A stretch of 20,918 nucleotides of DNA from a virus: the IMG/VR virus record IMGVR_UViG_3300030109_000391, positions 1-20,918 of that record. One strand, given 5' to 3'. Below, piece by piece: positions 3,082-7,767 of this stretch (position 1 is the stretch's first letter; each line of letters starts with the position of its first letter). The position numbers and the translations under genes are program-made. The notes under the pieces are model-generated. The model did no database searches and was not told where the DNA came from. It saw only the letters and a program-made list of their open reading frames with translations.

Positions 3082-4317
3082 ATGGAATTAGCACTAGTAA
3101 GAAGCCTGATGGATAAATCATTTTATGATGACCATCGTGGTTATAAATGCCCTGACAGATTGTTTAGTAAAGATGTTAGGAAGATTAAGAAGGTGATAGA
3201 TGATGCTATGACAAAGTATAGCAGAGATGTAACACCTGATGAAGTAGAAGCACTATTTATGTCTAGTAATTTTGGCTTAACGACAGCACAGAAACAGGCA
3301 TTTGGTGATTTGTTTGTGAAGATAAAGAAGGAGAAACCTCTTGGTGCAGACATTGCAAGTGATGTTTTGTCTAAGTTATTTCGTCAGATTATTGGGGAAG
3401 ACATTGCTAATATTGGCTTTGAGTATGTTAATGGCAGTCTTTCCTCACTTGAACCCATTAGAAATATTATTAGCAAACACAATGACGATTTTCTTCCCAT
3501 ACTAAATGTCGATTGGGAAGATTTAAGTATAGAAAGTATAATGGCTAAAAACTCTCTTGAAACACAGTGGGGTTTTAACATACCATCTTTAACACGTAAA
3601 GTAGAAGGTATAAATGCAGGTCATTTAATAATGGTAGGTGCTAGGTCTAACACAGGTAAGACATCTTTTCATGCTTCGTTGTTAGCAGGACCAAATGGCT
3701 TTGCAAGGCAGGGTGCTAAGTGTGTAGTGTTATGTAACGAAGAAGCTGCCCACAGAGTATCAATGCGATACCTTTCATCTGCGAGTGGGTTTAAGAAGGA
3801 AGATGTACCTGCAAATAAAGATGCAGTATGGAATGGTTGGAAAGATATACGTAAGAATATTAAGATTGTAGATTCTATTGGACAAGACATGTCGTGGGTA
3901 GAAGCTGTATGTCGTACATATACTCCTGACATTGTTGTTATAGATATTGGTGACAAATTTGCAACACAGGCAGGCTTTGCTAGACCTGACGAAGCATTGA
4001 AAGCTAATGCTATACATGCAAGAGAGATAGCTAAAAGACATAACTGTGCTGTATTTTATATGTCACAGTTAAGTGCAGAAGCAGAAGGTAGAATACAACT
4101 TAATCAAAGTATGATGGAAGGTTCTAAAACAGGTAAGGCATCAGAAGCTGACCTTATGTTATTACTAGCAAAGAACCCATCAGAAGGTGTAACAGAAGGT
4201 GAGCAGGAAGGAGAGGATGGTATTAGGCATATTATATTAGCAAAAAACAAACTATCAGGTTGGCATGGGAGAGTTACATGCGAGTTTGATTATGAAACAG
4301 GGAGATTTGGAGCATGA
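3082..4317 (+). CDS. DnaB-like replicative helicase
   Basis: Unwinds DNA ahead of the phage polymerase and should work with the primase encoded just upstream. It is a 411-aa protein with a RecA-like core: Walker A GARSNTGKTS (186-195, K193), probable catalytic glutamate in LCNEEAAHR (E220/E221), Walker B strand DIVVIDIGD (283-291), motif H3 MSQLSAEAEGR (327-337, Q329), and a C-terminal KNKLSGWHGR segment (388-397) typical of the DnaB/T7 gp4 group. The N-terminal ~150 residues resemble a small helical N-domain. The ribosome-binding site is AAAGGAG at 3067-3073. The stop overlaps the next gene's ATG (ATGA at 4314). Confidence 0.92.
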   Translation: MELALVRSLMDKSFYDDHRGYKCPDRLFSKDVRKIKKVIDDAMTKYSRDVTPDEVEALFMSSNFGLTTAQKQAFGDLFVKIKKEKPLGADIASDVLSKLFRQIIGEDIANIGFEYVNGSLSSLEPIRNIISKHNDDFLPILNVDWEDLSIESIMAKNSLETQWGFNIPSLTRKVEGINAGHLIMVGARSNTGKTSFHASLLAGPNGFARQGAKCVVLCNEEAAHRVSMRYLSSASGFKKEDVPANKDAVWNGWKDIRKNIKIVDSIGQDMSWVEAVCRTYTPDIVVIDIGDKFATQAGFARPDEALKANAIHAREIAKRHNCAVFYMSQLSAEAEGRIQLNQSMMEGSKTGKASEADLMLLLAKNPSEGVTEGEQEGEDGIRHIILAKNKLSGWHGRVTCEFDYETGRFGA

Positions 4318-4835
4318 GTATAACAGGTAAAAACATGGAGTTTGATGGTAACGAATGGTGGTACAGGTCTCCAAGCGGTGCTAGACGTAGACTGTGGTCA
4401 AATATTAAAAAGAATAAAGAACGTATGTTTGTCAATGGTAAGTACATAAAAAAATCACATCCCTTGTGGAAAGAAGGTCATTATAAAACATTTGAAGATG
4501 CAGCTTTTGCTTCTTTAAAAAATTATGCTAGAAGCAAAGTTGGAGAAGTTTATATTATAACTAATCCTGTATGGGAAGGTTGGTATAAGATAGGTATGGC
4601 AGTTGATGCTGAAGATAGGCTTATGGCATATCAGACAAGTTCTCCACACAGAGATTATAAGATAATACATAAAGTTAAAGTTGATAACAGAAGGGAAGCA
4701 GAGAAGAAAGCACACAGAGAAGCAGAGAAAGTTGCTAAAGAATATAATTCAGAATGGTTTTTTCTTGACATAGATGAAGCAATAACTATACTAGGAAAAG
4801 TAGAAGAGGAGTATGCACATGAAACTAACACTTGA
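4314..4835 (+). CDS. T5orf172 / GIY-YIG-like nuclease-domain protein
   Basis: A 173-aa protein. Its C-terminal half (about 77-150) matches the T5orf172/MUG113 branch of the GIY-YIG superfamily: GEVYIITNP (77-85), WYKIGMA (90-96), R102, the YQTSSPHRDY segment (106-115), a helix with E128 and E130 (NRREAEKKAH), and EWFFLD near the end. The N-terminal 75 residues are basic and aromatic (NEWWYRSPSGARRRLW, then NGKYIKKSHPLW) and may bind DNA. It lies between helicase and polymerase, overlapping the helicase stop by 4 bases and the polymerase start by 17. It could be a nuclease in replication/recombination or a domesticated homing endonuclease. Domain call fairly sure, role open. Confidence 0.75.
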   Translation: MSITGKNMEFDGNEWWYRSPSGARRRLWSNIKKNKERMFVNGKYIKKSHPLWKEGHYKTFEDAAFASLKNYARSKVGEVYIITNPVWEGWYKIGMAVDAEDRLMAYQTSSPHRDYKIIHKVKVDNRREAEKKAHREAEKVAKEYNSEWFFLDIDEAITILGKVEEEYAHETNT

Positions 4836-6831
4836 TGTAGAAAATACAGTAACGAACAGAGATGGTAAGCTACACCTTGACCCATTCGAGCCTGACAATA
4901 AACTAGTTATGGTAGGTTGCTTGACAGATACAGGTAAAGAATATCTTTTTAGAGATAACTACGAAGGCTTACAAGAGTTACTTGACAGTGCAACAATCTT
5001 AATAGGTCACAATATTGTACATGATTTGATGTGGATATGGGAGTGTGGTTTTAAATATGAAGGTTCTGTGTTTGATACAATGCTAGGTGAATACATACTA
5101 CAGTGTGGTCAGAAGCAACCATTATCATTAGAAGCTTGTGCAGAAAGGTATAACTTAGATACTAAGAAGCAAGATACATTGAAAGAATATTTTAAACAGG
5201 GTAAAGGTGTTGATGAAATACCACAAGAAGAACTAGCATCTTACCTGTCAGCAGACTTACATGCTACACAGCAATTAAGTGATGTGATATACAAAAAGTT
5301 AAATACTGTAGAGTATGGCGGTTTGATGGAGACAGTTGTATTAACTAATAGTGTAGCTGTAACTCTTGCTCATATATATAGAACAGGCTTTGCAGTCGAT
5401 TTAGAAATGCTAGATAAAGTTAAGACAGAGTTTGAGTTAGAGAAAAGTAATATAGAGAAGAGATTAAACTTACAAGTTAAGCAGTTGATGGGTGATACAC
5501 CTATTAATCTTAACAGTCCTGAACAGATGTCTTGGGTAATATTTAGTCGTAAGCCTAAAGATAAGGCTATGTGGGCAAATATGTTTACACCTTATCAAAA
5601 TAAATTGACATTTAAAAATACAGTAGATAAACATTCTAGTGTTATATACAAAACTAAAGCCATGCAGTGTTTACATTGTTATGGTACAGGTAGAATCAAG
5701 AAGGTGAAGAAAGATGGTACACCATATATTAATTTACCTAGATGTGTAAATTGTGGTGGTGAAGGTTATACTTTCACACCTACTAAAAAGATAGCAGGCT
5801 TTAAGTTTAATGCTCCTAACGTCAAGTGGGTTAGTAACAATGGTTTTAGTGTAAATAAAACTATGCTTGATATACTGCGTAATGCATCTATAAAAAATGA
5901 GAATACAGAAGCTAGTCAGTTTTTAGGTGACTTACAAAGACTGTCTGCTCTTGATACATATCTAGCATCTTTTGTAGATGGTATAAAAACATATGTAAAG
6001 CCTGATGGTAAGCTACACGTTAGGTTGTTACAACACAGAACTGCCACAGGCAGATTTAGTGGAGCAGACCCAAACATGCAGAACATGCCTAGAGGTGGTA
6101 CGTTTCCTGTTAAGAAGGTGTTTGTTTCACGTTGGAATAAAGGTCAGATACTTGAAGCTGACTTTGCACAGCTTGAGTTTAGAGCTGCGGCATTTTTATC
6201 ACAAGATGAGGTTGCAATTAATGAAGTTTCTACAGGGTTTGACGTTCACTCGTATACGTCTAAAGTTATTACAGATGCAGGTCAACCGACTTCTAGGCAA
6301 GATGCGAAAGCACATACGTTTGCTCCCCTCTACGGAGCAACAGGCTTTGGAAGAAGTCTTGCGGAAGCGAAATACTACGAACACTTTACAGAAAAATACA
6401 AAGGAATCAAGTCATGGCACTCCAGATTGGCTAAAGAAGCTGTAGAGACAGGTAAGATAACTACACCGTCAGGTAGACAGTTTTCTTTTCCTAATGTAGA
6501 ACGTTATCCTAGTGGTAAGGTATCACACTTTACACAGATAAAGAACTATCCTGTACAGTCTTTTGCGACAGCAGATATAGTGCCACTCGTATTGATGGAC
6601 ATACATGCTAAACTACAATCATTTAAGTCTTGTATAGTAAACACTGTACATGATTCTATAGTGATTGATGTTCATCCTGATGAAGTAAATGATATTATAA
6701 ATGTAGTAAAGAATGTGAATACATATATTACACAGTTGATACAAAAACAATTTAAGATAGAAATTAATGTGCCATTATTATTAGAAGCAAAAATAGGTAA
6801 TAATTGGCTTGACACTAAAGATGTCATGTGA
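4819..6831 (+). CDS. family-A DNA polymerase with DnaJ-type zinc-finger insertion
   Basis: The phage replicative polymerase with proofreading, 670 aa from ATG 4819. This start is preferred over ATG 4813 because GAGGAG at 4806-4811 is 7 bases upstream of it. The 3'-5' exonuclease motifs are LTLDVENT (D6, E8), IGHNIVHDL (N65, D69) and YLSADLHAT (Y142, D146). Polymerase motif A is LEADFAQLEFR (D448). Motif B is R493-x3-K497-x3-F501-x3-Y505-G506. Motif C is NTVHDSIVID (H611, D612). Between the two domains, after the NLNSPEQMSWVIF helix, lies an insertion (about 246-328) with two CxxCxGxG-type knuckles (C284, C287; C309, C312), the zinc-binding pattern of DnaJ. HMO-2011-type phages are known for this arrangement. 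F501 aligns with position 762 of E. coli Pol I. Confidence 0.96.
   Translation: MKLTLDVENTVTNRDGKLHLDPFEPDNKLVMVGCLTDTGKEYLFRDNYEGLQELLDSATILIGHNIVHDLMWIWECGFKYEGSVFDTMLGEYILQCGQKQPLSLEACAERYNLDTKKQDTLKEYFKQGKGVDEIPQEELASYLSADLHATQQLSDVIYKKLNTVEYGGLMETVVLTNSVAVTLAHIYRTGFAVDLEMLDKVKTEFELEKSNIEKRLNLQVKQLMGDTPINLNSPEQMSWVIFSRKPKDKAMWANMFTPYQNKLTFKNTVDKHSSVIYKTKAMQCLHCYGTGRIKKVKKDGTPYINLPRCVNCGGEGYTFTPTKKIAGFKFNAPNVKWVSNNGFSVNKTMLDILRNASIKNENTEASQFLGDLQRLSALDTYLASFVDGIKTYVKPDGKLHVRLLQHRTATGRFSGADPNMQNMPRGGTFPVKKVFVSRWNKGQILEADFAQLEFRAAAFLSQDEVAINEVSTGFDVHSYTSKVITDAGQPTSRQDAKAHTFAPLYGATGFGRSLAEAKYYEHFTEKYKGIKSWHSRLAKEAVETGKITTPSGRQFSFPNVERYPSGKVSHFTQIKNYPVQSFATADIVPLVLMDIHAKLQSFKSCIVNTVHDSIVIDVHPDEVNDIINVVKNVNTYITQLIQKQFKIEINVPLLLEAKIGNNWLDTKDVM
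5668..5766 (+). other. DnaJ-like zinc-binding module inside the polymerase gene
   Basis: This segment encodes polymerase residues 284-316. Two CxxC knuckles are visible: CLHCYGTG and CVNCGGEG, separated by a basic loop (GRIKKVKKDGTPYINLPR). Both have the glycine spacing of the DnaJ cysteine-rich domain (CxxCxGxG), which uses pairs of such repeats to bind zinc. Only two repeats are present, enough for one zinc site, compared with four in DnaJ. Confidence 0.85.
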
Positions 6832-6867: not shown

Positions 6868-7767
6868 ATGAGTGCAATTACAGACGTAACGACAATAGAT
6901 ACAAATAATTATGCAGGCATGGCTAAAGCTATGGGTGTGGCTGTAGAAGCAACTTCAGACCAAAAGACTAATACTCTTGCACGTTTGAAGATACAACACT
7001 CACCTATCATGGGTGAGATGGAGATAGATGGTAAAGCAGTTAAAGTAGAAACTATTAATGGTGGTGTCTACAAACTAGAAGTACCTGACGATAATACATA
7101 TTACTGTGATAGTATAGTTATAAGACCATACTTACAGAGATTTATGTACAAGAGATTTATCACTAATGTTAATCCTAAAGAGGGTGAGAAACGTGGTTCA
7201 TATCAAAAGACTATTATGGCAGACAATCTTAATATAGATTTGAAAGATAACTTTGGTAACTTTAATTGTGGTAAGCCTGCAGGGTATATAAAAGACTTTG
7301 ATGCTCTACCGCAAGAGACTAAAGACTTAATTAAACAAATCAAAAGAGTGCGTGTGTTGTTTGGTACAGTTGATATGATAGATGCCATGACAAGTGATAA
7401 GCAAGAGCATAAGATTATTAGTAAACCTTTTATATGGGAGATAGATAATAGAGATGCATTTAAGATTTTAGGTGAACCTTTTGCTAAACTAGCTAAGTTA
7501 AAAAAGTTACCTATACAGCATAACTTTAATCTAACTACAGAAGAAAAGGCTTTACCTAATGGTAATCCATATGCTCTGCCTATAGCCAACCTAGATACAA
7601 AAAAGTCTGTGGCAATAGAAGAGAAAGACCAAGACTTGTTTGCTGACTTTATGGCATGGGTGCAAAACTACAATGAATACATTGTCGCTGAGTGGCAGAA
7701 GAAAGCTACAGATAAAATGACTGATGATGAAATGGAAGTTGTAGAAACCTTTGTGGACATTGAATAA
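6868..7767 (+). CDS. probable single-stranded DNA-binding protein
   Basis: A 299-aa protein with no catalytic motif. I infer an ssDNA-binding role from position (between polymerase and recombination exonuclease, where T7-like phages carry gp2.5), size, and layout: a beta-rich central region (GGVYKLEVPDDNTYYCDSI, then RPYLQRFMYKRF with several aromatic and basic residues that could stack on DNA) and an acidic C-terminus (TDDEMEVVETFVDIE), a tail typical of SSBs that recruits partners. A strong AAAGGAGAAG ribosome-binding site precedes ATG 6868, which suggests high expression as expected for such a protein. The stop overlaps the next ATG as TAATG. The function is an inference. Confidence 0.55.
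   Translation: MSAITDVTTIDTNNYAGMAKAMGVAVEATSDQKTNTLARLKIQHSPIMGEMEIDGKAVKVETINGGVYKLEVPDDNTYYCDSIVIRPYLQRFMYKRFITNVNPKEGEKRGSYQKTIMADNLNIDLKDNFGNFNCGKPAGYIKDFDALPQETKDLIKQIKRVRVLFGTVDMIDAMTSDKQEHKIISKPFIWEIDNRDAFKILGEPFAKLAKLKKLPIQHNFNLTTEEKALPNGNPYALPIANLDTKKSVAIEEKDQDLFADFMAWVQNYNEYIVAEWQKKATDKMTDDEMEVVETFVDIE

Follow-up and report, generated by a model that had tools for sequence, protein, structure and literature searches.

Two CxxCxGxG motifs lie between the exonuclease and polymerase domains of the family A DNA polymerase encoded by this virus fragment, and the question is where in the fold the segment that bears them sits, where it came from and what it could do for a replicase. The window, a virus record of 20,918 bases, comes from an HMO-2011-type phage and covers part of its genome; this type is counted among the dominant marine phage groups in the available text of PMC9038755. 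Its genes follow the HMO-2011-type order, with an integrase-like ORF, primase, DnaB-like helicase, polymerase, a conserved unannotated gene, a PD-(D/E)XK/Cas4-like nuclease, endonuclease I and a B12-type ribonucleotide reductase. A GIY-YIG/T5orf172-type ORF occupies positions 4314–4835 between helicase and polymerase; among the fetched contigs, just five others (L001, L015, L017, L238 and L244) have a relative of it in the polymerase locus, which suggests a mobile addition. In HMO-2011, the helicase and polymerase genes overlap directly. A search of bacterial genomes for HMO-2011-type relatives returned MAG contigs only, and two pairs of identical HMO-2011-type phage contigs (L297/L298 and L300/L301) were filed under two MAGs (Flavobacteriales TMED123 and Neomarinimicrobiota MED589) as binning artefacts, so these contigs give no host information.

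The polymerase matched the Pfam families DNA_pol_A (E 9.5e-52) and DNA_pol_A_exo1 (E 1.8e-9), and it has the make-up of HMO-2011-type polymerases, that is, 3'-5' exonuclease and family A polymerase domains with a partial DnaJ domain of two CxxCxGxG motifs between them. It is 63% identical over its full length to the polymerase of Puniceispirillum phage HMO-2011, and with the polymerases of HMO-2011, CRP-345 and CRP-1 (60–63% identity) it forms a single clade in the tree. The two motifs are not a product of chance, as two such motifs never occurred together in 20,000 shuffles of the polymerase that kept its composition. They had been reported in the initial annotation as C284/C287 and C309/C312; these positions were counted from an in-frame ATG at 4819 and are hence two lower than the numbers used here, which start from the ATG at 4813. 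Its statement that the insertion marks a lineage and is not unique to this phage agrees with the available text of PMC6918029 and PMC9038755, where HMO-2011-type polymerases are described with a partial DnaJ central domain carrying two CxxCxGxG motifs between the exonuclease and polymerase domains. PMC9038755, in the same portion, treats this domain as a hallmark, found in 207 metagenomic viral genomes besides the isolates, and counts more than 2000 HMO-2011-type polymerase sequences. Searching 50,697 phage records with the insert region gave matches solely in polymerases of HMO-2011-type phages. The feature is mostly a published one of the lineage, and what is new is the anatomical detail. 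The available text of both papers locates the domain only between the exonuclease and polymerase domains, and contains no placement in the thumb and no discussion of the T7 domain.

Table 1. Coordinates of the polymerase, its thumb elements and the neighbouring gene in the window.
Feature	Position	Strand	Basis
Family A DNA polymerase gene (672 aa) with 3'-5' exonuclease domain, zinc-insert thumb, palm and fingers	4813..6831	+	Pfam, AF2 and PDB matches
Thumb helix H, residues 197–226	5401..5490	+	AF2 secondary structure
Thumb helix H1, residues 236–244, NLNSPEQMSWVIF region	5518..5544	+	AF2; aligned to E. coli Pol I NLSSTKQLQTILF
H1–H2 thumb insertion, residues ~246–343: a pair of short helices ahead of a two-stranded ribbon bearing the zinc module (predicted)	5548..5841	+	AF2; missing in StenR_269-type sister clade
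Zinc knuckle 1 (putative), CLHCYGTG, residues 286–293, C286/C289	5668..5691	+	Motif search, 247-sequence alignment
Conserved basic turn KKVKKDG, residues 296–302	5698..5718	+	247-sequence alignment
Zinc knuckle 2 (putative), CVNCGGEG, residues 311–318, C311/C314	5743..5766	+	Motif search, 247-sequence alignment; His for C311 in L026
Thumb helix H2, residues 349–361	5857..5895	+	AF2
Predicted gp32-like single-stranded DNA-binding protein (SSB), acidic C-terminal tail; proposed functional partner	6868..7767	+	AF2 model match, tail charge, locus survey

The AlphaFold2 (AF2) model of the polymerase was built from 68 sequences and reached a mean pLDDT of 93 and a pTM of 0.86, with pLDDT values of 85–97 for the blocks of the insert. 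Among solved structures it is closest to Bst Pol I and Taq Pol I (Z about 33–34), and the viral structure library gave no named match that adds to the question of the insert. The thumb helices are labelled here H, H1, H2 and I as is usual for the family, in which T7's domain lies between H and H1. In the model, the insert consists of helices at residues 251–257 and 264–274 and of strands at 279–285 and 319–327 that flank the zinc motifs, and helix I comprises residues 365–394. Aligned with E. coli Pol I and the insert-free StenR_269 type, the polymerase shows the insert after the NLNSPEQ helix (H1) and before FSVNKTMLDIL (H2), with an insertion point equivalent to Pol I residues about 595–606. 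The extra segment of T7 (about 261–333) precedes the FNPSSRDH helix, the equivalent of H1; MAFFT set T7's domain opposite the insert, and T7 FNPSSRDHIQ was matched by eye to Pol I FNLSSTKQLQ instead.

The initial annotation had placed the insertion after the conserved helix, at a site different from T7's, and had proposed structure prediction against T7 gp5 and Pol I as a check. Both the confident model and the alignments to Pol I and T7 bear this placement out, and the insert is predicted to occupy the H1–H2 loop at the tip of the thumb, whereas the thioredoxin-binding domain of T7 lies before H1. Identity of the two was ruled out by this position, since an insertion of T7 type would stand between H and H1. 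The length of about 80 residues proposed at first (residues 249–330 in the present numbering) corresponds to the net gain of about 80 over insert-free relatives, and the alignment delimits the inserted segment at about 246–343.

Regarding the zinc module, Pfam DnaJ_CXXCXGXG was its commonest Pfam match (37 of 37 members, best E 1.7e-7), and its profile matched repeats 2 and 3 of the cysteine-rich domain of E. coli DnaJ (1exk) with an E value of 8.3e-5. Phage Q antitermination proteins were matched as well, with an E value of 0.005 for 7ubj, and the Q-like phrog_6060 was hit by 36 of the 37 members. The 21 residues between C289 and C311 fit, at the level of sequence, the spacing of a DnaJ-like single zinc ribbon (about 18–22), and there are two repeats, not the four with two zinc sites of DnaJ. 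The module is best described as a DnaJ-like ribbon predicted to hold one zinc ion, similar to half of one DnaJ domain, with zinc binding deduced from the ligands. The DnaJ-type zinc insertion of the initial annotation is upheld to this extent, by the conserved ligands and the profile matches, with zinc binding as a prediction.

Conservation was examined in polymerases collected from IMG/VR with four queries, one of them an alignment led by an insert-free relative, and cysteines were not required. C286, C289 and C314 are invariant across the 247 sequences of the zinc clade. Residue 311 varies in a single sequence, L026, where His, also a zinc ligand, takes the place of the Cys of the other 246. 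A tree computed from the columns outside the insert unites the zinc polymerases, L026 included, in a single clade; the module thus arose in one event and was not lost in the 247-sequence sample. This tree is a quick one, in which the long-branch T7 and Pol I are placed uncertainly.

The use of this loop is not peculiar to the lineage. Inserts without CxxC pairs (Cys-free) were found in the same H1–H2 loop of the non-T7 Autographiviridae XAJ24, phiKDA1, Petty, NMeng1, RHph_I38 and KiKu, of Zobellviridae (ICP2 and MEP401) and of phage QDWS535, with a Y(K/A)SGKxKGxxK hairpin in common; only the zinc version is lineage-specific. The sister clade of the StenR_269 type (Stenotrophomonas phage StenR_269) has no insert. 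In StenR_269, a thioredoxin-domain protein is encoded two genes before the insert-free polymerase (L092 26-292). In the ICP2, MEP401 and QDWS535 phages (L095, L094 and L093), the family A polymerase is split into two adjacent ORFs, one for exonuclease and thumb and the other for palm and fingers, and ORFs of about 390 aa (e.g., L345, L351 and L363) suggest that the same split probably occurs in many related marine contigs.

The sharing of the loop raises the possibility that the zinc insert descends from the Cys-free podoviral insert instead of having been acquired separately. The two share, besides the loop, a similar lysine-rich hairpin (KSGKxKGxxK and KKVKKDGTP) and a similar downstream segment, and the likeness seen by eye extended to the KSGKxKG hairpin and to xPGYTxPxPxW compared with AGFKxxxPxxKW. 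In addition, one insert of the Cys-free type (L321, frame residues 344–362) bears a CxxC...CxxC knuckle of its own, gained independently and present in none of the relatives examined. In insert-only profile–profile comparison, however, the zinc and Cys-free inserts scored 13.7, inside a column-shuffled null whose best score was 22.8, a result with which distant homology is still compatible, while the autographivirid and zobellvirid Cys-free inserts matched each other clearly (E 1.5e-7, score 39, best null 15.5) and are related. The insert-free clade, moreover, falls between or beside the zinc and Cys-free groups in the tree. Homology by eye was rejected for now on the profile score, and we regard the derived origin as rather unlikely.

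The net charge of the insert has a median of +11 (range +6 to +18), compared with −13 for the rest of the same polymerases and +3 for the whole insert-free sister polymerases. Between the knuckles, the turn follows the pattern K-x-(K/R)K-(D/N)-G with hardly any variation: among the 247 sequences, K/R at 297 and 299 and K300 are nearly invariant and G302 is invariant, and K/R at 280, 297, 299 and 300 is conserved in at least 95%. As precedents, the thioredoxin-binding domain of T7 is a clamp whose basic residues contact the DNA backbone (PMC5984650), and plant organellar PolA has in its thumb a lysine-rich segment, insertion 1, that was modelled next to dsDNA (PMC7699545). Truncation of the Pol I thumb lowered processivity (Minnick 1996, as cited in the available text of PMC10061031). 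Thioredoxin- or glutaredoxin-like ORFs, sought by motif in the flanks of the loci, were found in 0 of 236 zinc and 0 of 21 insert-free loci.

The gene directly downstream offers a possible partner. Its product gave no significant sequence match in Pfam and none in a PDB profile search, and it was identified by structural comparison only. Its model aligned with the RB69/T4 gp32 cores (2a1k and 1gpc) with a Z of 8.3 over 162–167 residues; three gp32 or other entries followed at Z 7.0–7.5 and the rest were at 4.2 or below, while Foldseek alone gave no significant match. The predicted core fold and the acidic tail are those of a T4 gp32-like SSB. The ORF at this place has a median net charge of about −8 over its last 20 residues, and the gp32-like SSB is directly downstream in 199 of 199 zinc loci with at least 900 bases downstream and in 0 of 20 insert-free sister loci, an association that amounts to one contrast between two clades and not to many independent events. 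The equivalent gene of HMO-2011 is annotated as a hypothetical protein.

Taking together the sequence, position, single origin, conservation and charge of the insert computed here and its SSB-like neighbour, the following mechanism is proposed. The H1–H2 insert of about 98 residues would comprise a pair of short helices followed by a beta ribbon that folds about a single Cys4 zinc site and presents the basic turn K-x-K-K-D-G. Most likely, zinc would stiffen the ribbon and let its lysines hold the duplex as it leaves the active site; the acidic tail of the neighbouring gene's gp32-like SSB may be a further binding target. The insert would thereby act as a built-in processivity clamp that works without thioredoxin, taking the role of T7's thioredoxin-binding domain from a different loop of the thumb. 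We infer zinc binding, DNA contact and an effect on processivity, and consider the chances of this clamp, the simplest reading, evenly balanced; in its broadest form it is a zinc-stiffened basic ribbon that grips duplex DNA, docks the SSB tail or does both. The processivity or partner-binding role suggested initially is plausible and finds circumstantial support in the basic turn, the positive charge and the adjoining gene for an acidic-tailed SSB. Against a clamp, basic residues would suit protein docking equally well, and the zinc module is less conserved (mean 2.6 bits) than palm and fingers (3.3 bits).

The main alternative is that the insert is a docking platform for replisome partners, above all for the acidic tail of the downstream SSB, with any effect on processivity being indirect. 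The locus survey, the charge of the tail and the predicted gp32 fold all favour it, as does a PolA thumb tip for which binding to an SSB is predicted (PMC10061031). On the other hand, the association is a single phylogenetic contrast, and the small proteins encoded downstream of insert-free polymerases often end in acidic residues too, so that an acidic tail does not set the zinc loci apart; docking as the main role is rather less likely than the clamp. Since the SSB tail of T7 interacts with the thioredoxin-binding domain (PMC7699545), clamp and docking roles may both hold for the insert. A bolder form, in which the ribbon is at once DNA clamp and receptor for the tail of the co-inherited SSB, making the polymerase processive without a host factor, and in which phage thumb-tip modules evolved several times to do the job of the T7 clamp, is put forward as a speculation that is somewhat less probable still.

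Two further roles appear weaker. The insert could serve mainly in strand displacement, lesion bypass or partition between exonuclease and polymerase, a job done by insertions in thumb and fingers of plant organellar polymerases or Pol theta. Lesion bypass and end joining by plant organellar PolA depend on its insertion 1, also lysine-rich and in the thumb (PMC7699545), but there is no sequence tie between it and the phage insert, and the phage has helicase and SSB genes of its own, which leaves this role improbable. A true DnaJ-type co-chaperone module bringing host Hsp70 to the polymerase would account for DnaJ_CXXCXGXG as the commonest match and recalls the need of lambda replication for DnaJ (cited in the available text of PMC9038755). 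However, the module has only repeats 2 and 3 of four and one zinc site, it matches the Q antiterminators too, and the whole polymerase scores under the Pfam gathering cut-off for DnaJ_CXXCXGXG. Pfam found no J domain in the polymerase, and the sole HPD in any ORF of the window (VIDVHPDE) belongs to the C-terminal portion of this same protein. With the J domain missing and only half the repeats, such a role is very improbable.

For the preferred ribbon gripping DNA or the SSB tail, the interest lies in what it may say about replicases. A segment hitherto noted only as a 'partial DnaJ domain' combines a thumb-tip site, a basic charge, no loss in the sample and a coupling to a gp32-like SSB, which gives a testable idea of how such enzymes stay on DNA. 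The thumb inserts of phages have at least three states besides none, namely the H–H1 thioredoxin domain, the H1–H2 Cys-free hairpin and the H1–H2 zinc ribbon.

Among known systems, the closest are the HMO-2011-type polymerases (HMO-2011, CRP-1/2/3, HTVC033P and others), which share both CxxCxGxG motifs at 36–63% full-length identity; HMO-2011 has the same order of polymerase and SSB-like genes, and the window polymerase is a new member. The DnaJ cysteine-rich domain (1exk) has the CxxCxGxG ... CxxCxGxG pattern in common with the insert, which has half the repeats and no J or substrate-binding domains, and the zinc finger of phage Q proteins (7ubj, 4mo1; phrog_6060) is likewise a single-zinc CxxCxGxG ribbon, but in a different host protein and with a different function. 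The Cys-free inserts of XAJ24, phiKDA1, Petty, KiKu, ICP2, MEP401 and QDWS535 resemble the zinc insert in the H1–H2 loop and the lysine-rich hairpin, and differ in having no cysteine pairs and no detectable profile similarity to it. The plant organellar insertion 1 is another basic thumb insertion of a family A polymerase modelled by dsDNA, for which no zinc is described (PMC7699545). Finally, the thioredoxin-binding domain of T7 gp5 is, like the insert, basic, of similar size and in the thumb of a phage family A polymerase, but unlike it lies between H and H1, has no zinc and binds thioredoxin.
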